NCBI GenBank assembly: GCA_022451485.1
Contig: JAKUQS010000005.1
Span: 1 to 64,000, forward strand
Length of the DNA: 64,000 nt
Source: Gammaproteobacteria bacterium
Lineage (GTDB): Bacteria; Pseudomonadota; Gammaproteobacteria; Arenicellales; UBA868
Direction of reading: 5' to 3'
Shown here: piece after piece, positions 27,305 to 61,612 of the stretch
How positions within the stretch are numbered: the first letter of the stretch is position 1
How the letters are laid out: each line of letters begins with the position of its first letter
Notes under the pieces: generated by a model
The model's input: the letters and a program-made list of their open reading frames with translations, nothing else
Told to the model about the DNA's origin: nothing
Databases searched by the model: none
Program-made: the position numbers and the translations under genes

Positions 27305-28189
27305 ATGAAAGCCACCATATTGAGTTGTGCTGTAACGGGCAGTTTCACCACGCGAGAGCACAATCCTAATTTGCCCGTGACGCCAGAAGAAATCGCAGGC
27401 GAGAGCATCGCCGCAGCCAAGGCCGGTGCCGCGATTTGTCATATCCATGTCCGTGATCCGAATAGCGGATTACCCAGTATGGAACTGGAGTACTACCGAG
27501 AAGTGGTTAAACGTATTCGGGCGAGTGATACTGATCTCATTATTAACCTCACGACGGGCCCCGGTGGCCGTTTCGTACCTTCTGAAGAGGATCCCAAAGT
27601 AGCCGATCCGGCAACCAGTCTGACTCGACCGGAAATTCGTACAGCACACGTCGTAGAGTTAAAACCCGAAATCTGCAGTCTTGATTTGAACACAATGTGG
27701 TTTGGTGGCGGTGCGGTGATTAATCATCCCCCCGCAATTCGAGTCATGGCCGAACGTATTTATGCTGCGGGCATCAAACCGGAACTGGAAGTTTTTGATA
27801 CGGGGGATCTGCAGATTGCGGCTGACCTTTTGAAAGATGGCACCTTAAAACAGCCTGTACTCTTTCAGCTGGTGATGGGTGTGAAATATGGAATGGCTGC
27901 GACAACAGAATCGTTGGCATACGCACGTTCGATGTTGCCACCGGGTGCCGAATGGGCAGCCTTCGGAGCGAGTCGAATGGCGTTCCCAATGCTGGCTCAG
28001 GCCTTTCTTCTTGGCGGACACTGCCGGATAGGAATGGAGGACACGGTATACCTTTCTAAAGGCGTCAAGACACCTGGTAACGCAGCACTCGTCGACAAAT
28101 CTGTCAGAATCATTAATGAGCTGGGTGGTCAGATTGCAACGGTTGCCGAAGCTCGGCAGATGCTTGGTCTATCCGGGCCCGCTTCCTGA
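27305..28189 (+). CDS. Beta-keto acid cleavage enzyme (BKACE, DUF849), copy 1
   Basis: 294 residues, TIM-barrel zinc enzyme. HIHVRDPNSG (about 46-55) supplies the His-x-His zinc ligands, NLTTGPGG follows, [10 protein letters not shown] and GMEDTVYL supply further conserved acids. Family members condense a beta-keto acid with acetyl-CoA and split it to acetoacetate and a new acyl-CoA. This copy differs from the carnitine-linked copy at 54951 (MWFGG against INFSD at the substrate face), so its keto acid is probably different, perhaps lacking the trimethylammonium group. CTGGAGGA precedes the ATG. Its stop overlaps the next start (TGATG), linking it to the PLP enzyme. Confidence 0.9.
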   Translation: MKATILSCAVTGSFTTREHNPNLPVTPEEIAGESIAAAKAGAAICHIHVRDPNSGLPSMELEYYREVVKRIRASDTDLIINLTTGPGGRFVPSEEDPKVADPATSLTRPEIRTAHVVELKPEICSLDLNTMWFGGGAVINHPPAIRVMAERIYAAGIKPELEVFDTGDLQIAADLLKDGTLKQPVLFQLVMGVKYGMAATTESLAYARSMLPPGAEWAAFGASRMAFPMLAQAFLLGGHCRIGMEDTVYLSKGVKTPGNAALVDKSVRIINELGGQIATVAEARQMLGLSGPAS

Positions 28190-51223: not shown

Positions 51224-51604
51224 TTAGCTGTCTTCAAGCTCCGCCCAGATCCCTTTGGCGATTCGGTGGCATTCCACAGCGACGGGAACTCCGCAGTAAA
51301 TCGCGATCTGATTGATGATGGCACGCAATTCATCGCGACTGACACCGTTATTAATTGCACCGCGAAAGTGCAGTGCCCATTCGTGCATACGATTGAGGGC
51401 CGCCAACATCGTGAGGTTAAGCATGCTTCTGGTTTTTCGTGGCAGGGTCTCGTCTCCCCACACACCGCCCCAACAGTATTCGGTTAGTAGCTCTTGGAAT
51501 TCTCCTGCAAATGCACCGGCATTGGCCAGTGCTGTCTCGACGTACTCCGTACCCAGTACCTCTTTTCGAATAGCAAGTCCTTTGTCGTAGCGTTGTTGGT
51601 CCAT
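51224..51604 (-). CDS. Carboxymuconolactone decarboxylase family protein
   Basis: 126 residues, the length of PcaC. EYCWGGVWGDETLPRKTRSM (about 52-71), HEWALHFRGAINNGVSRDEL and QIAIYCGVPVAVECH align with 4-carboxymuconolactone decarboxylase motifs, including the tryptophan/arginine-rich lactone site. Together with the upstream alpha/beta hydrolase (PcaD-like) it resembles the last pair of protocatechuate catabolism, yet the other Pca genes are absent, so a related lactone or peroxide function is equally likely. AAGGAG precedes the ATG; it converges on the M20 gene nine bases away. Confidence 0.85.
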   Translation of the reverse strand: MDQQRYDKGLAIRKEVLGTEYVETALANAGAFAGEFQELLTEYCWGGVWGDETLPRKTRSMLNLTMLAALNRMHEWALHFRGAINNGVSRDELRAIINQIAIYCGVPVAVECHRIAKGIWAELEDS

Positions 51605-51664
51605 GTCATCTCCTTGTTTGTAACTGGTGAAGTGAGTTTGTCGTAAGCATTGCAGAATTCGACG

Positions 51665-52468
51665 TCATACCCCGGACGATGATGACGTCAGGAAGGAAAG
51701 CAGTGCCATATTAATTTGGTCTGGATCTTCGATCGGTGCCAGATGGCCTAATTGCTCGAAGATAATGACTGCACTATTGGGTAAGTCACTGATCATCCGA
51801 TGAGCTATTTGCGGAGTCGAACCGGGGTCTAGTCCGCCAGCGATGACCAGAGTCGGACAGGTGACCTGTTTCAAGCAATCTCCTATGTCATCATCAGCAC
51901 TTACAAAAATCCGATAAGCATCCAGGTAACCATCCAGATCATTAGAAACTAATCGATGTCGAATTTTGGCAATAGTGCTTGGGTTATTTTCAATAAACGA
52001 GGGTTTAAACCAACGATCAATGGCGGCATCAGCAATTGGTGAGAGGCCTTTATTTTCTGTTAAGGCGAGACGAGTGTGAACGCCAGCCAATTCCGCTGGT
52101 GTTCGTTGATAAACGGTATTCATTAACACGAGCTTTTCAAGTAACGTGGGGTGTTGAAACGCAAAATACTGCGCGATAACGCCTCCCATGGAATGGCCTA
52201 TCAGTGAGACGGACTCCAGTTCCAAGTAAGCTAAAAGGTTGAAGAGTTGGTCGCTAAAATCTCTGATACCTCGCACATTCGGTTGACGGGGGGTTTCTCC
52301 GTGCCCCAGCATGTCATAACGGAGAATCTGGAATTGGTGGGAGAGCACATCCACCTGTGCATTCCAGGCATTAAGGTCTAAGCCAACCCCATGACATAAA
52401 ACTACGGTGGGTAGTTGTGTCTGACCCTCGAGCCGGTAGGAAGTGCCGTCGGGGCTAAGATGTCTCAT
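51665..52468 (-). CDS. Alpha/beta hydrolase, 3-oxoadipate enol-lactonase-like
   Basis: 267 residues from ATG 52468 (a TTG three codons earlier is possible). The oxyanion HGVG in VLCHGVGLDLNAW, nucleophile Ser in LIGHSMGGVIAQY, an Asp in AGGLDPGSTPQ and the His in EQLGHLAPIEDPD form a complete catalytic triad. It is similar in layout to PcaD and is followed by the CMD gene 60 bases later. It should hydrolyse an ester or enol-lactone in the cytoplasm. Divergent from ridA over a region with a perfect dyad. Confidence 0.87.
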   Translation of the reverse strand: MRHLSPDGTSYRLEGQTQLPTVVLCHGVGLDLNAWNAQVDVLSHQFQILRYDMLGHGETPRQPNVRGIRDFSDQLFNLLAYLELESVSLIGHSMGGVIAQYFAFQHPTLLEKLVLMNTVYQRTPAELAGVHTRLALTENKGLSPIADAAIDRWFKPSFIENNPSTIAKIRHRLVSNDLDGYLDAYRIFVSADDDIGDCLKQVTCPTLVIAGGLDPGSTPQIAHRMISDLPNSAVIIFEQLGHLAPIEDPDQINMALLSFLTSSSSGV

Positions 52469-52538
52469 AGTAGGCAAGTTCCCAGCAGATGCATTGAGTG
52501 ATCAGGAAGGTCGATTTCTCGAACCATGATGCGTCCTG

Positions 52539-52564
52539 TCGATACGCAGTATCGAGTTTATAAA
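52539..52564 (+). promoter_or_regulatory. Perfect dyad next to a -10 box before ridA
   Basis: TCGATAC (52539-52545) and GTATCGA (52549-52555) form a perfect 7-bp inverted repeat with three bases between, ending four bases before TATAAA (52559-52564). No good -35 is present, which would fit an activator-dependent promoter for the RidA-aldehyde dehydrogenase unit or an operator shared with the divergent hydrolase gene. Confidence 0.4.
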
Positions 52565-52634
52565 GTTCTGTGAGTAAACGCTGACTATTCTTCAGCTGTG
52601 ATAAGTTGTCCCCTCAGTTTAGCGGAATAACACG

Positions 52635-53027
52635 ATGACTAAACCTAGTAAGGAAATTGTCGGTGCGCCGATTGTGATCGGTGGCCGCGAGTTAACCCTG
52701 TCAAAGGCTGTCAGGGCCGGTGATTTTGTTTTTCTCACTGGACAGGTGCCGATGCGAAACGGACACCCAATGACTTCGGGGTCAATTGAGGAGCAAACTC
52801 GAGCTTGTCTAGAAGATATTTCGGCCACATTAGCCGAGGCGCGCTGTGAACTTGGCGATGTGGTGAAGTCAATGGTGTGGCTTAAATCGCGCGATGACTT
52901 CCCCGGATTTAATGCTGTGTATGGAGAATATTTTCCAGAAGGACCGCCCGCACGATCAGCTCTAATCAGTGATTTTCTGGTGGACGTTCGCGTCGAAATC
53001 GAATGTATTGCATATAAGCCGCGTTGA
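52635..53027 (+). CDS. RidA (YjgF/YER057c/UK114) family protein
   Basis: 130 residues, usual RidA size. LSKAVRAGDFVFLTGQVPMR, EEQTRACLEDISATLAEARC and RSALISDFLVDVRVEIECIAY are typical, with the invariant Arg in the PPARSAL context that binds the carboxylate of imines. RidA proteins hydrolyse reactive enamine/imine intermediates made by PLP enzymes such as threonine dehydratase, or act as specific deaminases in catabolic operons. It lies 10 bases before the aldehyde dehydrogenase start, so both are one unit. Confidence 0.9.
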   Translation: MTKPSKEIVGAPIVIGGRELTLSKAVRAGDFVFLTGQVPMRNGHPMTSGSIEEQTRACLEDISATLAEARCELGDVVKSMVWLKSRDDFPGFNAVYGEYFPEGPPARSALISDFLVDVRVEIECIAYKPR

Positions 53028-53037
53028 GGAGGTCGAT

Positions 53038-54522
53038 ATGTCTGAGTTGAAAAACTACCAAATGTTTGTTGATGGCTCCTGGATAGATGCTGCGGGGGAG
53101 GCGTTATTTGAGAGTGTTAATCCTTCAACCGGCAAAGTATGGGCAATGATTCCTGAGGCCAGTGTCGCTGATGTTGATCGTGCGGTTCGAGCTGCGCATC
53201 ATGCATTCGCTGAAGGGCCATGGTCCCAAATGACTGCAACCGAGCGAGGCAAATTATTGCGAAAACTCGGTGACCTGTTGGGCGAGCACTCCGAATCATT
53301 AGGCCGGTCGGAGACGGTTGATACAGGGAAACTTTTTAAAGAAACGCGTTGGCAGGCTCGTTATATAGCCGATTTTTTTCATTATTATGCGGGGCTGGCC
53401 GATAAGGTGCACGGTGACACATTGCCCATCGACAAACCCAATATGTGGACCATGACTTTACGTGAACCACTGGGTGTGGTGGCAGCCGTGGTGCCCTGGA
53501 ACTCACAGTTGTTTCTGGTTGCGGTAAAGATAGCGCCGGCGCTAGCGGCCGGAAATACAGTGGTGTTGAAAGCATCTGAACATGCCTCTGCGCCAATGCT
53601 CGAGTTTGCAAAAGTTTTTGAAGAGGCAGGTTTCCCACCAGGAGTTTTCAATGTGGTGACTGGTTTCGGGGATCCCTGTGGTAAAGCCTTGACGTCCCAT
53701 CCGTTGGTCGACCGAATCAGTTTTACCGGGGGTACCGAAACGGCACGTCATGTAATTCGAAACTCGGCGGAAAATTTTGCTCAGGTTTCGCTTGAGTTGG
53801 GAGGCAAATCGCCTCTGATTATCTTTGAAGACGCTGAGATTGAGAGTGCGGTTAACGGAGTCTTACTCAGTATTTTCAGCGCCAGCGGGCAGAGCTGCGT
53901 GGCGGCATCACGCTTGTTGCTGCATGATGCGATCCACGACGAAGTGCTTACAAGAGTCGCGCAGCGAGCGAGCGAGATTCGTATTGGTGATCCATTGGAT
54001 GAGTCGAGTCAAATGGGCCCATTGGCGACTCAGGCCCAAATGGACAATATTGTGGCTACGGTGGCAGATGCTAAAGCTAATGGGGCAACGGTGATGCATG
54101 GTGGGCGTCAGCCGGCGACTCTCAAGCAGGGTTGGTTTTATGAACCTACCGTGGTCGCGTGTCCGAGTCAGTCGCTGTCAATTGTGCAGAAAGAACTATT
54201 CGGGCCGGTGGTCAGCGCGATCCGGTTCAAAGATGAATCGGATGCGATTCGTTTGGCTAATGACACACGGTTTGGTCTTGCAGCTGGTGTCTTCACAACC
54301 GATACGGGGCAAGCCCTTCGAGTTACCAAGGCCCTGCGTGCGGGTATTGTCTGGGTCAATACCTATCGGATGGTTTCACCTCTGGCGCCCTTTGGGGGTT
54401 ATAAAGAGAGTGGTTACGGTCGGGAATCAGGACTTCAGGCAATTTATGATTACACTCGACCGAAAACCGTTTGGCTCAACACGTCCCCGGATCCGATATC
54501 AGACCCGTTCATGATGCAGTAA
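53038..54522 (+). CDS. NAD(P)-dependent aldehyde dehydrogenase
   Basis: 494 residues from ATG 53038, with GAGGAGG seven bases upstream; the frame continues further up but without a ribosome-binding site. VVPWNSQLFL (cofactor loop), SFTGGTETARHV, general base Glu in LELGGKSPLI and nucleophile Cys in SASGQSCVAASRLL are all in place. It resembles betaine-aldehyde and gamma-aminobutyraldehyde dehydrogenases in length and motifs. Its position next to the carnitine module raises the possibility of 4-trimethylaminobutyraldehyde oxidation to gamma-butyrobetaine; benzaldehyde-type substrates from the decarboxylase at 44610 are another option. Confidence 0.88.
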   Translation: MSELKNYQMFVDGSWIDAAGEALFESVNPSTGKVWAMIPEASVADVDRAVRAAHHAFAEGPWSQMTATERGKLLRKLGDLLGEHSESLGRSETVDTGKLFKETRWQARYIADFFHYYAGLADKVHGDTLPIDKPNMWTMTLREPLGVVAAVVPWNSQLFLVAVKIAPALAAGNTVVLKASEHASAPMLEFAKVFEEAGFPPGVFNVVTGFGDPCGKALTSHPLVDRISFTGGTETARHVIRNSAENFAQVSLELGGKSPLIIFEDAEIESAVNGVLLSIFSASGQSCVAASRLLLHDAIHDEVLTRVAQRASEIRIGDPLDESSQMGPLATQAQMDNIVATVADAKANGATVMHGGRQPATLKQGWFYEPTVVACPSQSLSIVQKELFGPVVSAIRFKDESDAIRLANDTRFGLAAGVFTTDTGQALRVTKALRAGIVWVNTYRMVSPLAPFGGYKESGYGRESGLQAIYDYTRPKTVWLNTSPDPISDPFMMQ

Positions 54523-54533
54523 TGCGCAAGGCC

Positions 54534-54908
54534 TTAATCGGTGGTAACGACTTGCTTGTAGTAGGTGTCTTTTTTGATAATTTTTCCCTGCCTAAACTCC
54601 CACAGGTCGCAGCCAAGACAGTCGATTCTGCCTGTGGGTGCGGTTCCAGTAACCCGCCACTCCGAAAGCGCTTTGTCCCCCATGATCCATGACTCGCCAT
54701 CTCGCCACTGAATATCCGGCATGGATTGAAAGCGAGTTCCCAAGATCTCGCGAATCGCAGGTTTACCGACAAAACGTTCGCCGTGAGGTTCAGTACCCTT
54801 AGCTAGTAGGAATTCACTATCTTCTGCAAACCACTCCATGATGCCGTCCAGATCATGATCATTGAATGCGGAAAGTATCTGGTTCAATTGATCCATCGAT
54901 ACGCTCAT
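54534..54908 (-). CDS. SnoaL/NTF2-like small protein
   Basis: 124 residues. The pattern LSAFNDHDLDGIMEWFAEDSE, the FVGKPAIREIL turn and LWEFRQGKIIKKDTYYK identify the cone-shaped NTF2/SnoaL fold. Such proteins are isomerases, hydrolases or binding proteins, and the residues at the cavity are not diagnostic. It is the last gene of the - strand carnitine unit, just behind the BKACE, a place where Pseudomonas-type clusters carry the hotdog betainyl-CoA thioesterase. No catalytic function is claimed. Confidence 0.82.
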   Translation of the reverse strand: MSVSMDQLNQILSAFNDHDLDGIMEWFAEDSEFLLAKGTEPHGERFVGKPAIREILGTRFQSMPDIQWRDGESWIMGDKALSEWRVTGTAPTGRIDCLGCDLWEFRQGKIIKKDTYYKQVVTTD

Positions 54909-54950: not shown

Positions 54951-55838
54951 TTATCCACGGAGGCCCAGTTTACCGCGGGCCTCATCGGCGGAACAGGCGC
55001 GTCCGCCAAGTTCCGTGATAATGCGAATTGCCTTGGAGACGAGTTCGCCATTGCTCGCGTGCACTCCGCGTTCTAGATAAAGGTTATCTTCCAAGCCGAC
55101 TCGAGCGTTGCCGCCCAGCAACATGGCCTGAGCCACCATGGGCATTTGCATTCGGCTGATTCCAAAACCCGACCAGACAGCATGCGCTGGCACTTGGGAA
55201 GCCATAGTCGACATAGTCGCTGTTGTGGCGTCGGCACCCCAGGGAATGCCAAGACAGATTTGGTACATTGGTGGGTCATCAAGCAAGCCTTCTTGCACCA
55301 TCTGGTTGGCAAATCGCAAATGCCCTAGGTCAAACACCTCGAGTTCCGGTTTTACGCCAATTTCCCGGTATCGAGTGGCCATGGTGCGAAGCATGTTGGG
55401 AGTTTGTACGTAAATGACATTGTCATCGCTGAAGTTGATGCTGCCGCAGTCAAGACTAGCGATATCAGGTCGAAGTGCTTCAACATGAGCCATTCGAGTC
55501 TCTGCATTAACAAGATCACTGCCCGGCCCGGGCGTAGCGGGGTCATCGTCGTCAACGATCAAGTCGCCACCCATACCCGCTGTTAGATTAATCAGTACAT
55601 CACGACCGCTGGCACGGACCTGTTCGACCGACTGCCGGAAGAGCTCTATGTCTCGACTGCCCGCCCCGGTCTCAGGATCTCGTACATGGATATGGACGAT
55701 AGCCGCTCCCGCATCGGCAGCCTCGATCGCCGCGCTGGCGACCTGTTCAGGCGTTACCGGAATGGCTGGGTGCTTGTCCACTGTGTCGCCTGCGCCCGTA
55801 ACAGCGCATGTGACGATTACTTCATAATTAATAGTCAT
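54951..55838 (-). CDS. Beta-keto acid cleavage enzyme, dehydrocarnitine-type (BKACE, copy 2)
   Basis: 295 residues. [20 protein letters not shown] at the start, the zinc motif [53 protein letters not shown] and [11 protein letters not shown] give a closely family-typical sequence resembling 3-dehydrocarnitine cleavage enzymes. The reaction is dehydrocarnitine + acetyl-CoA to betainyl-CoA + acetoacetate. Twelve bases separate it from the carnitine-dehydrogenase-like gene upstream, which would make its substrate. The assignment rests on that pairing and on recognised motifs; other 3-oxo acids are possible. Confidence 0.9.
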
Positions 55839-55849
55839 ACGGAGCCTCT

Positions 55850-56866
55850 CTAAGTCGATGGTTCTGTAGATGTCTCACGAGGCGATTGAAAATCAGGCCA
55901 ACCGTCCTCGCCGGGCGGATACCAGTGTTGTGCTAGCACTTTCTGTATTTCCATTAAGCAACGGTCGCGTTTTTTCTCAAGTTCAGCGAATGGACGTTGA
56001 CCGGTTTCTTGATCACAGCCCTCAATGATTCGCGTTTGCAGTGCCTCGGTTAATTCGGGCGCCTGCATATTGCACCATGGCAGCTCAAGTGCGGGACCAA
56101 ATTGGGCTAGATTCTGCCGCATACCCCCTGGTCCGCTGCCAAGATGCCAGCCAAGAAGCGTGCCCATGAACGCCCAGCGTAACCCGGGACCACCGGTAAT
56201 TGCTGCGTCGATTTCTGCGACAGATGCGATGCCATCATTGATCAAATGTAATGCTTCGCGCCAGATCGCCTCCTGTAAGCGGTCAGCGATGTATGCATCA
56301 ATTTCTTTTCGGACTCTAAGTGGACGCATTCCAATAGAAGCATAAAAGGTGCCCGCTGCATTGATCGCCTGTTCATTGGTTTTTTCCCCGCCGACGACCT
56401 CGACCAACGGCAGGAGGTAAACCGGAGCAAACGGATGACCGACTAGGTGTGACTCAGGCCGAATGCTTTGAGATTGAATATCGCTCGGCAGCAAACCGGA
56501 TGAGCTTGATGCAACGACGACGCCGGGACGAGTATGGCGACTGATTTCAGCATGTACGTCAGTCTTTAGAGTCGCTCGTTCTGGAACATTTTCTTGCACA
56601 AAATCTGCGTTAGCGACCGCTTTTTCTATATTAGACTCAAATACCAGGCGATCGCGGCTGGCGCCGGATGGCATGCCGATTTCTTCAAGCAGCGGCCAGG
56701 CCGCATCCACCGCCGCGCGCAGTTTCGATTCGCTTGAAGCATCGGGGTCAGTCACGCTGACATCCATACCGTTGGCCAGGCAGCGGGCAGCCCAACCGCT
56801 GCCAATCACACCCGCACCGACCAAGGCAATGTGCGTGATATCAGTTACGGCCGGAATCGAGTTCAT
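55850..56866 (-). CDS. L-carnitine 3-dehydrogenase
   Basis: 338 residues. [20 protein letters not shown] is the NAD-binding loop, and the segment [20 protein letters not shown] followed by [18 protein letters not shown] and [10 protein letters not shown] is the recognisable carnitine-dehydrogenase region rather than that of ordinary 3-hydroxybutyryl-CoA dehydrogenase. It oxidises L-carnitine to 3-dehydrocarnitine with NAD in the cytoplasm. It sits between the CaiD-like gene (24 bases) and the BKACE (11 bases). The C-terminus ([13 protein letters not shown]) is also as in that family. I am fairly confident of the family; the exact substrate needs a test. Confidence 0.88.
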
Positions 56867-56890
56867 TAGTCGTTCAACTTGGAGGTGAAA

Positions 56891-57703
56891 TTATTTTCCA
56901 CGAAAAACGGGCTCTCGTTTTTCAACAAATGCGCGGATTCCTTCGAGCGCATCTTCGGAACGCAGCATCTTACGATAAATAGGCAAGTCGACAGTGCGCA
57001 TCGTTTGGAAAGATTGCTCAATTGTGTCGCCTTCAATCGCACGCAGTACCTCCTTGATAGTCTGAACTGCGAGCGGTGCCGATGCTGCAAGCTGGTCGGC
57101 CCAGGCGCGCGCTCGAGTCATGAGTTCTGCTGTTGGGACGACCGCATTGACGAGGCCATGTTGATAAGCCTCGTTCGCTGGCATGCGTCGACCCAGGAGC
57201 AACATTTCGAGTGCCACGTTGTAGGGTAGACGCCGGGGTAGCCGTTGAATGGCTCCGGCATCAGGCACGATGCCGAGCGGCATTTCAGGCAAGGCGAACT
57301 CGACATGATCGGCCGCGATGACAAGGTCACACGCCAGCACCAATTCAAATCCTCCGCCAATTGCCAGGCCGTTCACCGCGGCGATTACGGGTTTGTTGAG
57401 ATCCCATAGTTCAGTGAGGCCGGCAAATCCTCCAGGAAGGCCAACATCGTCCTCCCACCATTCATCCAGCTTCGTATCACCACGGTCTACTGCCTTCAGA
57501 TCCCAACCGGCTGAAAACATACGCTCCCCGGTAGCAGTCACAATGCCGACTCTTAATTCGGGATCGTCACGCAATGTGACAACAGCTTCACTAATCATGC
57601 GACTCAGGTCATCATCAATGGCATTCACTTTGGGTCGGTCGAGGGTGATTTCAAGCACCGCACCACGGCGCCTGACCTGGACTTCGTTAGTTCTATCTGT
57701 CAT
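56891..57703 (-). CDS. caiD: Crotonobetainyl-CoA hydratase (CaiD-like, crotonase superfamily)
   Basis: 270 residues, equal in length to CaiD. Identical stretches with E. coli CaiD are easy to see: ILEITLDRPK-like AVLEITLDRPKVNAID, FSAGWDLKA, PGGFAGLTELWDLNKPVIAA, GGGFELVLACD, EMPLGIVPD and the tail EKREPVFRGK. The oxyanion-hole regions and acidic residues are thus conserved. It hydrates crotonobetainyl-CoA to L-carnitinyl-CoA. It is the first gene of the - unit with carnitine dehydrogenase and BKACE, and faces the acyl-CoA dehydrogenase gene. Nearest alternative: a general enoyl-CoA hydratase. Confidence 0.87.
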   Translation of the reverse strand: MTDRTNEVQVRRRGAVLEITLDRPKVNAIDDDLSRMISEAVVTLRDDPELRVGIVTATGERMFSAGWDLKAVDRGDTKLDEWWEDDVGLPGGFAGLTELWDLNKPVIAAVNGLAIGGGFELVLACDLVIAADHVEFALPEMPLGIVPDAGAIQRLPRRLPYNVALEMLLLGRRMPANEAYQHGLVNAVVPTAELMTRARAWADQLAASAPLAVQTIKEVLRAIEGDTIEQSFQTMRTVDLPIYRKMLRSEDALEGIRAFVEKREPVFRGK

Positions 57704-57724
57704 CGGGGTACCCTGTCTACTGGA

Positions 57725-57765
57725 TGAATTAATTCACATTGTTTGGAAAATTGCCTGCTTAAGCA
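57725..57765. promoter_or_regulatory. Two perfect palindromes between caiD and acyl-CoA dehydrogenase genes
   Basis: TGAATTAATTCA (57725-57736) is a 12-base perfect palindrome 22 bases before the caiD start, and TGCTTAAGCA (57756-57765) a 10-base perfect palindrome nearby. They sit in the 170-base divergent region and could be operators for both arms of the carnitine/gamma-butyrobetaine module. Clear -35/-10 pairs are not evident. Confidence 0.4.
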
Positions 57766-57873
57766 TCGAGTTTACGACAGTGCCACCTTTTTGCGCGTCT
57801 TTCTGTATGCAACAGGGGCTAGCCGCCATAACATAAGCGTTTGGAAGGCCGGGTTACCGAATGGGATAGATCG

Positions 57874-59034
57874 ATGGATCTAGAACTTAGCGACGAACAA
57901 CGACTCTTAGCGAGCTCAGTAAAGGCATTCGTTGATAGCGAATTAATGCCTTGGGAGGCAGAGAGTGATCGGGCTGGGGAAGTTTCTCCGGAGTTGGGTC
58001 GGCAGATTTCCGAGAAAGCATTGGCACTTGGTTTCTACGCGGCGAACCTGCCTGAGTCGGTGGGTGGTGGTGGGCTAGACAATGCCAGTCTCGCGATCAT
58101 GGAGCGAGAACTCGGTAAGGTTACTCACGCATTGCACGGTTACGTTTGGCGACCTACGGAGTTATTGCTGGCGTGTGAGGGAGATCAAATAGAACGTTAT
58201 CTCACGCCGTGCGTTCGCGGTGAAAAGACCGAATGTTTTGCAGTAACTGAGCCTGGCGCAGGTTCGGACATCTTGTCGATGTCAACACGGGCTACGAAAA
58301 AGGACGGTGATTGGATAATCAACGGTTCTAAACATTTCATCAGCAGTCACGTCTTGCCAGATTTTGCCATTGTCTTTGCAGTGACTGGAGAGGAGGAAAC
58401 TAATCGAGGTCTTCGTAAGCGCATCACCGCATTTCTTATTGATCGTGGCCACCAAGGCTTTGATATTCAGCGTGGACCACGTTCTGTGAGTCAACGTGCA
58501 TACCCGACCTATGTATTGTCATTCAACGAGTGTCGTTTGGGTGCGGATCAAGTACTCGGCAGTGAAGGGCAGGGCCTTGAGTTGGCCGACAAGTGGATAA
58601 AAATGGGCCGTGTCTGGGTTGGCGCTAATTGTTGTGGCCGCGCGGAACGGTTACTTGACTTATGTGCAGAATGGGCAGCTAGCCGTAAACAGTTCGGCCA
58701 GGCAATCGGTCGTTTTCAGGGAACTTCGTTTAAGTTGGCTGATATGGTGACTGAACTGCAAGCGGCTGACCTTCTCGTTATGCATGCAGCTCGGAAGGCT
58801 GATGCTGGGACGATGGTTCCTGCCGATGCGGCAATGGCGAAATTGTATGCCTCGGAGATGTTGCAGCGGGTAGCCGACAATGCAGTCCAGATTTTTGGAG
58901 GAATGGGCCTGATGGAAGAAATGCCGATAGAACGGTTGTGGCGCGATTCTCGCCTTGACCGAATCTGGGAAGGTACCTCCGAAATACAGCGTCACATTAT
59001 TAGCCGTCATGTACTTCGCCAATGGCAAGGGTGA
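57874..59034 (+). CDS. Acyl-CoA dehydrogenase, possibly gamma-butyrobetainyl-CoA dehydrogenase
   Basis: 386 residues from ATG 57874 (TTG at 57841 would add 11 unlikely residues). MDLELSDEQRLLASSVKAFV opens the family, AVTEPGAGSDI is the FAD signature, and RIWEGTSEIQRHIISRHVL holds the catalytic-type Glu near the C-terminus. It introduces a double bond into an acyl-CoA with FAD, passing electrons to ETF. Context (CaiD-like, carnitine dehydrogenase divergent; acyl-CoA ligase overlapping by one base downstream) suggests gamma-butyrobetainyl-CoA to crotonobetainyl-CoA. It does not look particularly close to E. coli CaiA, so the substrate is inferred from neighbours. Confidence 0.85.
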   Translation: MDLELSDEQRLLASSVKAFVDSELMPWEAESDRAGEVSPELGRQISEKALALGFYAANLPESVGGGGLDNASLAIMERELGKVTHALHGYVWRPTELLLACEGDQIERYLTPCVRGEKTECFAVTEPGAGSDILSMSTRATKKDGDWIINGSKHFISSHVLPDFAIVFAVTGEEETNRGLRKRITAFLIDRGHQGFDIQRGPRSVSQRAYPTYVLSFNECRLGADQVLGSEGQGLELADKWIKMGRVWVGANCCGRAERLLDLCAEWAASRKQFGQAIGRFQGTSFKLADMVTELQAADLLVMHAARKADAGTMVPADAAMAKLYASEMLQRVADNAVQIFGGMGLMEEMPIERLWRDSRLDRIWEGTSEIQRHIISRHVLRQWQG

Positions 59035-61130
59035 TGAGTGACAAACGTAAGAATCTCGAACGATTATTGTCGCCGCGTCACGCGGCGTTTGTCGGGGGAG
59101 AGGATGCGTTGCATGCCGCGATATGCTGTGCAGAAGGTGGGTTTACCGGCAAAATTTGGGGGGTAAACCCTGGCAGAAGGACATTGGGAGACTTCCCCTG
59201 TTTCCCCAGTGTTAGTGATCTGCCCACGCCGCCCGATGCGGTTTTCCTGGCAGTACCTAGCGCGACGGCGGTTGAGGTAGTGGCACAACTCGCGACGATC
59301 GGGGCCGGCGGGGTGGTCTGTTACACCGCGGGGTTTGGGGAATTAGGTGGCGCTGGTGCGAAACTTGAGAAAGTGCTCGCCAAGGTTGCGGGAGACTTGG
59401 CATTGGTTGGTCCCAACGTGTTTGGGTTACTTAATTATCTAAGCGGTGCGCATCTTTGGCCGTACGCGCATGGTGGTAAACGGGTTGAGCGGGGAGTAGC
59501 TCTCGTATCGCAAAGCGGCATGTTGTCTGGTTACGTCACGACCAATCAGCGTTCCGTAGACTTTTCGTATGTGATCGGCGCTGGCAATCAGACTTGTTTG
59601 GGTGTCGAGGATTACCTTGAGGCTCTGGTCGAAAACCCAGCAGTGAACGCGTTTGGACTATATGTTGAAGCCTTACGTGATATCCCTCGGTTTACCGATA
59701 TCGCGATACAAGCATTGGCCCATCATAAACCGATTGTTGTGTTAAAGGGAGGTGCGTCGGAGGTGGGGGCGGCCACCACCGTGACACACACCGGGTCACT
59801 TGCTGGCACGGATTCCTTTTACCAGGCACTTTTTGATCGGCTGGGTATCGTCCGTGTGACTACACCCAGTCAGATGCTGGAAACGCTGAAACTGTTAACG
59901 GTGGCCGGCGCCCCCAGTGGAAAAAAACTGGCAGCATTTACTTGTTCTGGTGGCGATGCTGCCATGGTAGCTGATGGAGGCGCCTTGTTGGGTCTTGAGT
60001 TTTCGCCGGTTTCCTTAAGTACTCGAAATACTTTGAATGAACTATTACCGTCGATCGCGACGGTCTCCAATCCACTCGACTACACAACCCCCCTTTGGGG
60101 CAACGAGCAAGTACTGACAAAGGTATTCGATGCCTTGGTCCGCGATGACTGCGATATGGCGCTATTGGTGCAAGACTATCCGCCCCTCGATATGAGTCAT
60201 GATGTCCAAATGTATCGCACCGATGCTCGTGCCTTTGCTGCTGCTACTTCAGCCGCAGGAGTGCCGGCTGCGGTTTGTAGCGTGTTGGCAGAGAATTTTG
60301 ATGTAGAAAGTCGTTCGTTGATGTCGCAACAGGGGGTTGCGCCCTTACAGGGTCTGGGCGACGCGCTCACGGCTATAGCCGCTAGCACAAATTTCACACA
60401 GCGTTGCGAACAGATTGTTTCTAATCGGAATGAATTGCGATTGACCCCAATCCAGTTGATTGACGACACCCCACTTACAGTTGATGAATGGGAGGGAAAG
60501 CAGTTGTTATCTGCGGCAGGTATCCAGGTGCCACGTGGGCACTGCGTGTCGTTTGACTTGGTGGAGGATGCTGCGGACACGCTGGGTTATCCTGTGGTGC
60601 TGAAACTCATTGGGACCGGTTTTGAACACAAGACAGATGTTGGAGCTGTACGAGTAGGCCTGGAAAATCGCGCAGCGGTCAGTCGCGCATTGGTAGAAAT
60701 GGTTTCGTCGATCAGTACAAATTCCCCATCGTTGGTGTTGGATAAGGTGCTGGTCGAGGAAATGATGCCCGCCCCACTAGCGGAGTTATTAATTGGTGTG
60801 CAAAGTGATCCGCAATTTGGACAGGCGTTGACCCTTGCGAGTGGCGGTACGTTGGTTGAATTAGTCCGAGATAGCCAAACTTTACTTTTGCCCAGTAGTA
60901 GAAGCGACATTGAACAGGCGTTATTGTCCTTGCGCTGCAGTGTCTTGCTTCGGGGTTACCGTGGCCAGAGTAGTGTGGCTATCGGAGGGTTGATTGACGT
61001 TGTGTACGCTGTGACCGAATTTTCCGCACAATACCGACATCGAAAACTGGAGTTAGATATTAATCCGTTGTTTGTGCTCGAAGATGGCCCTGTCGCGGTG
61101 GACGTATTATTGCGATTCATTCCTGATTAG
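59034..61130 (+). CDS. ADP-forming acyl-CoA synthetase, fused alpha-beta (acetate-CoA ligase family)
   Basis: 698 residues from ATG 59034, which overlaps the preceding stop by one base (TGATG). The N-terminal CoA-binding domain has HAAFVGGEDALHAAI; the succinyl-CoA-synthetase-like region has LVGPNVFGLLN, ALVSQSGMLSGYVT and the phospho-His in TVTHTGSLAGTDSFY; the C-terminal ATP-grasp domain starts near AGIQVPRGHCVSF with YPVVLKLIGTGFEHKTDVGA. This NDP-forming ligase activates a carboxylate with ATP giving ADP. It takes the place CaiC would hold, so gamma-butyrobetaine or crotonobetaine are the proposed substrates. It ends overlapping the convergent GFA gene by four bases. Confidence 0.9.
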   Translation: MSDKRKNLERLLSPRHAAFVGGEDALHAAICCAEGGFTGKIWGVNPGRRTLGDFPCFPSVSDLPTPPDAVFLAVPSATAVEVVAQLATIGAGGVVCYTAGFGELGGAGAKLEKVLAKVAGDLALVGPNVFGLLNYLSGAHLWPYAHGGKRVERGVALVSQSGMLSGYVTTNQRSVDFSYVIGAGNQTCLGVEDYLEALVENPAVNAFGLYVEALRDIPRFTDIAIQALAHHKPIVVLKGGASEVGAATTVTHTGSLAGTDSFYQALFDRLGIVRVTTPSQMLETLKLLTVAGAPSGKKLAAFTCSGGDAAMVADGGALLGLEFSPVSLSTRNTLNELLPSIATVSNPLDYTTPLWGNEQVLTKVFDALVRDDCDMALLVQDYPPLDMSHDVQMYRTDARAFAAATSAAGVPAAVCSVLAENFDVESRSLMSQQGVAPLQGLGDALTAIAASTNFTQRCEQIVSNRNELRLTPIQLIDDTPLTVDEWEGKQLLSAAGIQVPRGHCVSFDLVEDAADTLGYPVVLKLIGTGFEHKTDVGAVRVGLENRAAVSRALVEMVSSISTNSPSLVLDKVLVEEMMPAPLAELLIGVQSDPQFGQALTLASGGTLVELVRDSQTLLLPSSRSDIEQALLSLRCSVLLRGYRGQSSVAIGGLIDVVYAVTEFSAQYRHRKLELDINPLFVLEDGPVAVDVLLRFIPD

Positions 61131-61612
61131 TCAGTATCAGCGACTGTCTTCAGTTCAGATTCCCCCATTAGTCTAGCTGGATCACGATGAATCGGGTTGA
61201 AAGCCGGGTGGGTATCGAAGTGTTCAGGACTCTCAATACAAACAAAGGACGCGCTGCTTCGCGTGAAGACCTCACGATCTATAGCGTACCAGAATGTTGG
61301 TGGATCAAATGTTCCACCTGAAATGCCTATCGAGTCCGGCCTAGTGCCAATGGTCCACCAGACCGTGGTGCCGCAGTTTGTACAGAATCGCGTGTCGAAT
61401 GCCCTGCCGGACGCAGTCGTCAGGTGGTGAGTCTTTACCGCGCCGTTGCCCAGTTGAACTTGGTCTTGAGAAAAGTAAACAGAGACGCCGAAGGTACTGC
61501 CGCTTCGCAGTTGACAATAGCGACAGTGGCAGATCGATGCGACTTCTGGTGTTCCAGTAACCTGGTATCGAACTGCACCACACAGACATCCCCCTTCGTG
61601 AATATGGCTCAT
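61127..61612 (-). CDS. GFA family (CENP-V/glutathione-dependent formaldehyde-activating) zinc protein
   Basis: 161 residues. EGGCLCGAVRYQVTG, ICHCRYCQLRSGS and FCTNCGTTVWW give the zinc-cysteine pattern of the GFA fold. Members bind zinc and sometimes assist formaldehyde detoxification by glutathione, which would suit demethylation of N-methyl compounds, but many are uncharacterised. It overlaps the upstream oxaloacetate-decarboxylase-like gene by four bases (ATGA) and its stop overlaps that of the convergent acyl-CoA ligase. Confidence 0.85.
   Translation of the reverse strand: MSHIHEGGCLCGAVRYQVTGTPEVASICHCRYCQLRSGSTFGVSVYFSQDQVQLGNGAVKTHHLTTASGRAFDTRFCTNCGTTVWWTIGTRPDSIGISGGTFDPPTFWYAIDREVFTRSSASFVCIESPEHFDTHPAFNPIHRDPARLMGESELKTVADTD

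Follow-up and report, generated by a model that had tools for sequence, protein, structure and literature searches.

A widespread marine gene cluster that joins an ADP-forming acyl-CoA ligase to carnitine-type enzymes and probably serves gamma-butyrobetaine catabolism

The genome of a gammaproteobacterium of the order Arenicellales (family UBA868; assembly GCA_022451485.1; 118 contigs, 3.14 Mb, completeness 92.7%, contamination 5.95%) includes a 169-kb contig (C64; JAKUQS010000005.1), the bases 1–64,000 of which are the stretch analyzed here (the window). Five intact open reading frames at 54951–61130 form two divergent units and lie adjacent, in the order given by a prediction made earlier from the letters of the window (the original prediction). 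They encode a beta-keto acid cleavage enzyme (BKACE), a carnitine-type 3-dehydrogenase (CDH), a crotonase-family hydratase, an acyl-CoA dehydrogenase (ACAD), and an acyl-CoA ligase. The features of the locus are as follows:

54951–55838, minus strand: BKACE (PF05853), best read as a 3-dehydrocarnitine:acetyl-CoA cleavage enzyme that would yield betainyl-CoA and acetoacetate (Pfam, identity, shared columns).
55850–56866, minus strand: L-carnitine-type 3-dehydrogenase without a fused thioesterase domain (NF005471 score, identity, tree split).
56891–57703, minus strand: CaiD-type crotonobetainyl-CoA hydratase of the crotonase family (best NCBIfam match, identity to CaiD).
57704–57873, unstranded: divergent intergenic region of 170 bp, the presumed promoter region for both units (from the sequence).
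57874–59034, plus strand: ACAD, the putative gamma-butyrobetainyl-CoA dehydrogenase (Pfam Acyl-CoA_dh N, M, and C domains; identities).
59034–61130, plus strand: ADP-forming (NDP-forming, ACD superfamily) acyl-CoA ligase, the putative gamma-butyrobetaine/crotonobetaine:CoA ligase (Pfam, H256, structural model, conserved residues).
51224–54908, unstranded: genes for a carboxymuconolactone decarboxylase-like protein (CMD), an alpha/beta hydrolase, RidA, an aldehyde dehydrogenase, and a SnoaL protein, recurrent neighbors of the module with no assigned role (Pfam, locus counts).

In the minus unit the order hydratase–CDH–BKACE (gaps of 24 bp and 11 bp) is the order of the proposed reactions; the plus unit is the ACAD followed by the ligase. 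Most homologues of the ACAD begin at the residue encoded by the ATG at 57874, so its start should most likely be moved there, which makes the divergent gap 170 bp. The ligase start should most likely be moved to the ATG at 59034, where it overlaps the ACAD stop as TGATG. The five genes have neither a regulator gene nor a transporter gene next to them.

Pfam and NCBIfam agree with the names that the original prediction had given to the five proteins, although none of them passes an NCBIfam cut-off among the matches listed. For the hydratase, crotonobetainyl-CoA hydratase is the best match of 73 families (318.7 bits), and the protein is 51.9% identical to E. coli K-12 CaiD over 266 aa. In a tree it falls inside an 85-row clade with E. 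coli CaiD (97% in the Shimodaira–Hasegawa-like approximate likelihood-ratio test, SH-aLRT); with five outside rows, all long-branched, this is a weak test.

The best NCBIfam match of the CDH is L-carnitine dehydrogenase (NF005471, 407.9 bits). The protein is 53% identical to the L-carnitine dehydrogenases of Burkholderia and of a Caballeronia operon that also encodes choline-type binding proteins and a thioesterase, and the CDH of which passes the NF005471 cut-off of 414 at 614.6; its identity to the CDHs of window-type clusters outside its own family is at most 49%, that in L077 (58%) excepted. In an 86-row tree built by a quick method and supported by SH-aLRT only, a 98% split has on one side the window's group with the outgroup and the CDHs from carnitine loci and, on the other, 54 CDHs from other window-type clusters plus the carnitine-locus CDH of Citricoccus; when rooted on the single, long-branched outgroup, the set of window and carnitine-locus proteins has 82%. 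Two CDH lineages in the same slot of the cluster would fit a single substrate.

The BKACE matches PF05853 (323 bits), keeps the HIH and R-x-G-x-E-D motifs, and is best read as the dehydrocarnitine type, a reading that draws on these motifs and on shared alignment columns. Thirteen columns are common to the window clade and at least nine of ten carnitine-locus BKACEs and occur in none of seven paralogue rows; these columns were chosen after the fact, the paralogues are much more distant, and two paralogue pairs are identical copies. One of the thirteen, G17, aligns with Glu14 of Kce, which we take to be the amine-binding residue of that enzyme. In the tree, the protein groups with other window-type BKACEs (90%), beside those from carnitine loci and far from the paralogues in its own genome. 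It is 64% identical to the BKACE of the Caballeronia carnitine operon, but BKACEs of window-type clusters outside its own family reach 66%, so the Caballeronia protein is no closer. A second, distant BKACE gene lies at 27305–28189 of the window, beside hydantoinase/oxoprolinase-like pairs (named from sequence reading).

For the CaiD-like hydratase, the carnitine-type dehydrogenase, and the dehydrocarnitine-type BKACE, the domain models, identities, trees, and columns thus bear out the original names. The ACAD is 54% identical to the ACADs of Rhizobium and Sinorhizobium carnitine clusters and 32% identical to CaiA; its substrate is predicted to be gamma-butyrobetainyl-CoA. A grouping of the ligase and the ACAD with fatty-acid enzymes had been named beforehand as the result that would speak against a betaine role; the ACAD instead sides with the Rhizobium-type enzymes, by identity and not by tree.

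The ligase belongs to the ADP-forming acyl-CoA synthetase (ACD) superfamily, as indicated by its domains (CoA-binding, Succ_CoA_lig, and ATP-grasp_5), the phosphohistidine H256 (present in 113 of 113 aligned rows), and its fold; in NCBIfam it matches ADP-forming ligases, far below any cut-off. Its Pfam matches include no AMP-binding domain, and BLASTP at E 1e-5 gave no match with E. coli CaiC, which we take to belong to a different ligase family. The original assignment of the ligase as ADP-forming, and not of the AMP-forming CaiC type, is supported. The ligase carries the motif NPLDYTTPLWG, and Y354, W359, and D385 are present in all 96 rows of two clades, that is, 82 window-type sequences (77 distinct) and 14 Rhizobium-type sequences (five from carnitine loci, six from dcw-type and similar loci, and three from CaiB-type loci); position 398 is Tyr or Trp in 95 of the 96. 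Among 17 other ADP-forming ligases (16 from the same order, one from the same genome), the three residues occur in 0, 3, and 3, respectively, and the Y354/W359 pair in none.

The AlphaFold2 model of the ligase has a mean pLDDT (predicted local distance difference test) of 87.5 and a pTM (predicted template modeling score) of 0.89, and the only stretch of at least three residues with pLDDT under 50 is the phosphohistidine loop. The best Foldseek match is DddX (E 2.5e-49); in VIA-align, DddX (Z 39.0, rmsd 2.8, 662 residues aligned), 4-hydroxybutyryl-CoA synthetase (Z 38.9), and ACD1 (Z 38.2) are tied. The ADP-forming fold and the phosphohistidine are common to DddX and the window ligase; the two are 25–26% identical, and DddX eliminates dimethyl sulfide, a reaction for which no counterpart is possible with gamma-butyrobetaine. 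The DddX residues Trp391, Phe435, and catalytic Glu432 correspond to T355, M397, and D394 (a hand count on a phmmer alignment), and the conserved Y354, W359, and Y398 adjoin these positions. DddX is reported to hold its onium (sulfonium) substrate with aromatic residues (PMC8163506); by analogy, the aromatic residues of the window ligase may bind a cation. Gamma-butyrobetaine or crotonobetaine is the predicted substrate of the window ligase. A DddX-type dimethylsulfoniopropionate lyase, considered as the best structural match, was not adopted, both because the cluster has CDH, BKACE, and CaiD and because conservation of the DddX residues is not clean.

The five genes are together in many genomes. 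In the same order, 85 of 109 genomes have some relative of the ligase at E ≤ 1e-60 (both ligase types counted), and all five genes occur together in 23 of the 39 relatives' loci from that order, with several others cut by contig ends. We also scanned named genomes with 18 aligned ligase orthologues and retained the best 80 of 360 relatives, mostly from marine alpha- and gammaproteobacterial metagenome-assembled genomes (MAGs); this sample overlaps the first, as 28 of the 39 loci recur among the 80. By tblastn with score thresholds that we set ourselves, the best 80 loci contain the ACAD in 69, the hydratase in 66, the CDH in 63, the BKACE in 57, and all four partners in 46; none of the four is found in four loci, and the median span of the cluster is about 6.3 kb. 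For the 45 loci with good flanks (at least 5 kb before and at least 3 kb after the ligase), the corresponding counts are 38, 41, 40, 37, and 31. The co-location of the five genes is more than chance. The cluster is kept across gammaproteobacteria, alphaproteobacteria, and SAR324 (e.g., Shimia, Pseudohalocynthiibacter, Defluviimonas, Pelagibius, and many MAGs); the nearest named kin in the scan are two gammaproteobacterial MAGs (L083 and L084), with ligases 85% identical to that of the window. The trait is scattered: among 394 sampled genomes from the family of Shimia, a close orthologue of the ligase (E ≤ 1e-200) occurs in 14, Shimia among them.

From the gene content, the conserved co-location, the family and subfamily placements, and the catalytic residues, we consider it probable that the module serves C4-betaine catabolism, converting gamma-butyrobetaine or crotonobetaine via L-carnitine and 3-dehydrocarnitine to betainyl-CoA and acetoacetate; the substrate, the direction, and each reaction of these particular proteins are predictions. 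The ligase would use a phospho-histidine mechanism to form gamma-butyrobetainyl-CoA or crotonobetainyl-CoA; the flavin-dependent ACAD would oxidize the former to the latter; and the CaiD-type hydratase would convert crotonobetainyl-CoA to L-carnitinyl-CoA. An enzyme encoded elsewhere, or the ligase in reverse, would then release CoA from L-carnitinyl-CoA, the NAD-dependent CDH would oxidize L-carnitine to 3-dehydrocarnitine, and the BKACE would convert 3-dehydrocarnitine and acetyl-CoA to betainyl-CoA and acetoacetate. The original reading of the gene order as a route is supported.

Genes that accompany the cluster in relatives fit glycine betaine and acetoacetate as products: an acetoacetate-CoA ligase gene in the Aminobacter locus, a sarcosine oxidase gene in the Parasedimentitalea locus, and dimethylglycine-dehydrogenase-like and MttB-like genes in three of the 39 relatives' loci. 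A GbdR-like regulator (268 bits, under its cut-off of 480), located opposite the BKACE in alphaproteobacteria, is present in 25 of the best 80 loci and a Pot-type ABC transporter in 12; alphaproteobacterial clusters often include them. The window's own genome has five MTTB-family genes. The marine roseobacter Ruegeria pomeroyi is reported to demethylate glycine betaine with a cobalamin-linked methyltransferase (PMC12478193). A gene of the GFA family (formaldehyde-activating type) adjoins the ligase both in the window (61127–61612) and in Pelagibius (L108, 11189–11680); it is possibly linked to demethylation.

Several observations weigh against the gamma-butyrobetaine/carnitine route. The hydratase scores below the equivalog cut-off for crotonobetainyl-CoA hydratase (318.7 versus 500), as does the CaiD of the Rhizobium carnitine cluster, which likewise scores only 309 against this model, and the CDH misses its cut-off by 6 bits. 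The ACAD is missing from some genomes: orthologues (at least 57% identity) are absent from seven of 11 genomes picked for loci that seemed to lack it, and from none of three others, with the ligase kept throughout; orthologues of the hydratase (at least 60%) are absent from one of the same 14. These identity thresholds were set by us, and many of the genomes are MAGs. Of 33 genomes from the family to which the window belongs, at least 19 have a second ligase type, and another contig of the window's genome (C63, locus L234) encodes a CDH with a fused 4HBT thioesterase, an ACAD that is 72% identical to the Rhizobium carnitine-cluster ACAD, and a CaiB-like CoA transferase. A further set of genes, for which the simple route has no need, recurs beside the clade (see below). 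Finally, in the literature we found no assay on an enzyme of the window-type clade; a search of titles, limited to open-licence papers, found no work about the marine ligase clade.

The redundancy of ligase types and CDH loci within genomes suggests different substrates for the two sets, and it supports the strongest rival, namely that the module acts with the same chemistry on a close analogue of gamma-butyrobetaine (another N-alkyl or a sulfonium 4-substituted butyrate) and that the Rhizobium-type set handles carnitine. The sulfonium substrate of DddX (PMC8163506) and the extra, linked oxygenase set are also in its favor. Nevertheless, with one exception, the window-type CDHs from outside the window's own family are more distant from the window CDH than the carnitine-operon CDHs are, the aromatic pair is common to both ligase clades, and the regulator in relatives is GbdR-like; we regard the analogue as unlikely, if still to be taken seriously. 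That the BKACE is no closer to the Caballeronia protein than to window-type ones slightly lowers our confidence in the gamma-butyrobetaine/carnitine route, to the benefit of this rival.

As for the second ligase type, six loci from five genomes are all Rhizobium-type, and five of the six, the short L188 being the exception, are surrounded by ftsZ/lpxC/secA-like genes (named by sequence reading). In L186, L187, L189, L190, and L196, the Rhizobium-type ligase gene accompanies genes for an ACAD and CaiD in this cell-division/cell-wall region; contig ends truncate some of these pieces.

The extra genes, that is, a luciferase-like (LLM) monooxygenase, aldehyde dehydrogenase, RidA, hydrolase, and CMD, look like a second catabolic set; of the best 80 loci, 34 have one or more members and 19 have three or more. 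The window has four of them beside the module (CMD, a PcaD-like hydrolase, RidA, and aldehyde dehydrogenase, 51224–54522), and the LLM gene is on contig C108. Members also occur at L108, L123, L139, L145, L161, and L164, and an LLM monooxygenase with a flavin reductase elsewhere in the clade. Four plasmid loci of the Rhizobium type that we opened (two Rhizobium, one Sinorhizobium, one Alloyangia) do not show the set as such, although two have an alpha/beta hydrolase. We considered trigonelline/homarine or Rut-like ring cleavage, for which no useful literature support was found, and trimethylaminoacetone salvage, for which the search gave only a Citrobacter paper. On plasmid pW43B of Parasedimentitalea marina, RidA and the hydrolase have as a neighbor a 707-aa protein (L243, 6200–8323) in which a family III CoA-transferase and a flavin reductase domain are combined.

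The original prediction also held that the five genes would give complete breakdown of gamma-butyrobetaine. This goes too far: beside them we recognize no enzyme for the conversion of L-carnitinyl-CoA to L-carnitine or of betainyl-CoA to glycine betaine, and betaine demethylation is encoded elsewhere. Relatives of the carnitine-locus thioesterase are found in none of the best 80 window-type loci nor in five further ones; all 11 of the other carnitine loci compared, which were hand-picked, some for a visible thioesterase, have one (six supplied the queries and five did not). Most family genomes, that of the window among them, do have a thioesterase relative outside the locus (31 of 33), as do 12 of 14 other genomes; most of these relatives are stand-alone, and the CoA-release step is therefore possible in trans. 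Within the window the best match is its own gene at 605–1045, itself a query and 54 kb away. By sequence reading, the stand-alone thioesterase gene of the window's genome has a parB-like neighbor, as does that of G104, and the one in G108 is near parA/parB-like genes.

The lack of a linked thioesterase raises two further possibilities for the ligase. The first is that one reversible ligase serves both ends of the route, charging gamma-butyrobetaine and regaining ATP from L-carnitinyl-CoA and betainyl-CoA, and so replaces both CaiC/CaiB and the thioesterase. This seems to us distinctly unlikely; if true, oxidation of the betaine in energy-poor seawater would need little net investment in activation, or none. 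The second, which we judge quite improbable, is that the ligase is mainly ATP-yielding, discharging betainyl-CoA and/or L-carnitinyl-CoA, and replaces the thioesterase rather than CaiC. Beyond the contrast between the 85 window-type loci and the hand-picked carnitine loci, the second draws on the ligase being kept beside CDH/BKACE in six of the seven genomes without an ACAD orthologue (the locus of the seventh, L151, has no partner gene) and on an operon in L114, LLM–CDH–BKACE–ligase, that lacks the hydratase and the ACAD and in which the ligase start overlaps the BKACE stop. Replacement of the thioesterase first looked strong; it was then weakened by the thioesterases elsewhere in the genomes and by loci with other ligases, in which the thioesterase is also missing (11 of 11: L077, six dcw-type, L195, and three CaiB-type, some of them short), so that its absence is not special to the window-type clade. 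Moreover, in Rhizobium and Sinorhizobium the ligase coexists with a fused thioesterase, and S. meliloti BcoAB is reported to work in vitro in the CoA-charging direction (PMC8364193). In one locus (L078, 7079–9790), ACAD and ligase share a single 903-codon frame from which parts of both are missing, either an assembly error or a real fusion.

An ordinary cluster for short- or branched-chain fatty-acid oxidation with no betaine role is hardly credible: the best NCBIfam models of the ACAD are generic (acryloyl-CoA reductase, 257 bits; FadE) and far below their cut-offs, and its best PDB matches are short-chain ACADs, but a BKACE and an L-carnitine-type CDH have no place in such a pathway, no thiolase was recognized among the neighboring window genes read, and the subfamily placements of CDH, BKACE, hydratase, ACAD, and ligase point to carnitine.

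Carnitine is described as a nitrogen-containing osmolyte usable by marine roseobacters (PMC12478193), and R. pomeroyi is reported to have an experimentally verified carnitine transporter (PMC10130141). A countable, conserved gene set for the butyrobetaine branch would let its flux in marine alpha- and gammaproteobacteria be read from metagenomes, and the annotation "acetate--CoA ligase family protein" would be corrected for the window-type clade.

Among known systems, the bbu genes of Emergencia timonensis are also reported to serve gamma-butyrobetaine catabolism, but they use CoA transferases and release trimethylamine (PMC8364193). An Arctic island of SAR11 is described with CDH and BKACE, as in the window, but together with a gamma-butyrobetaine dioxygenase and with no CoA ligase among the genes named (PMC12421898). 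Aerobic carnitine operons (caiX-cdhCAB-hocS in Pseudomonas; those of Caballeronia, Paracoccus, and Novosphingobium) share part of the window's content, with CDH and BKACE and a GlxA/CdhR-type regulator nearby; the Caballeronia, Paracoccus, and Novosphingobium loci are without ligase, ACAD, and CaiD and have a thioesterase, fused or separate. The caiTABCDE operon of E. coli resembles the window in having a CaiD-type hydratase (52% identity) with an acyl-CoA dehydrogenase and a CoA ligase in one locus; it differs in having CaiB and no CDH or BKACE, and the Cai route is reported to run reductively (PMC2131755).

The closest counterparts are rhizobial. Relatives of the ligase at E ≤ 1e-60 are found on 165 plasmids, 130 of them from Rhizobium, and in all four of the plasmid loci opened (Rhizobium TAL182, R. 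bangladeshense, Sinorhizobium B11, and Alloyangia pacifica), BKACE, carnitine 3-dehydrogenase, ACAD, ligase, and carnitinyl-CoA dehydratase/CaiD are together. The original prediction had pointed to the joining of the Cai and CDH/BKACE routes in one locus; the joining is present here, but the plasmid loci have the same five functions, so the window is not the first example. S. meliloti BcoAB is reported to charge gamma-butyrobetaine with CoA at the expense of ATP, yielding gamma-butyrobetainyl-CoA (PMC8364193), and we infer that it is the Rhizobium/Sinorhizobium-type ACD ligase. A soil strain between Agrobacterium and Rhizobium (HK4) is reported to convert gamma-butyrobetaine to L-carnitine by a fatty-acid-like route and to degrade carnitine via carnitine dehydrogenase (PMC2131755). 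The Rhizobium/Sinorhizobium cluster comprises a GlxA regulator, BKACE, a CDH–thioesterase fusion, ACAD, the ADP-forming ligase, carnitinyl-CoA dehydratase, and an ABC transporter; it shares with the window the five functions, the ADP-forming ligase, and the adjacency of the genes, at identities of 37–38% (ligase), 44% (CDH), 45–46% (hydratase), 48–49% (BKACE), and 54% (ACAD), whereas the window has no fused thioesterase, two divergent units, and no adjoining regulator or transporter. What differs from the rhizobia is the diverged ligase clade and clusters without a thioesterase; the module is a marine version, widespread and diverged, of a kind of gamma-butyrobetaine/carnitine module that rhizobia are already known to have.

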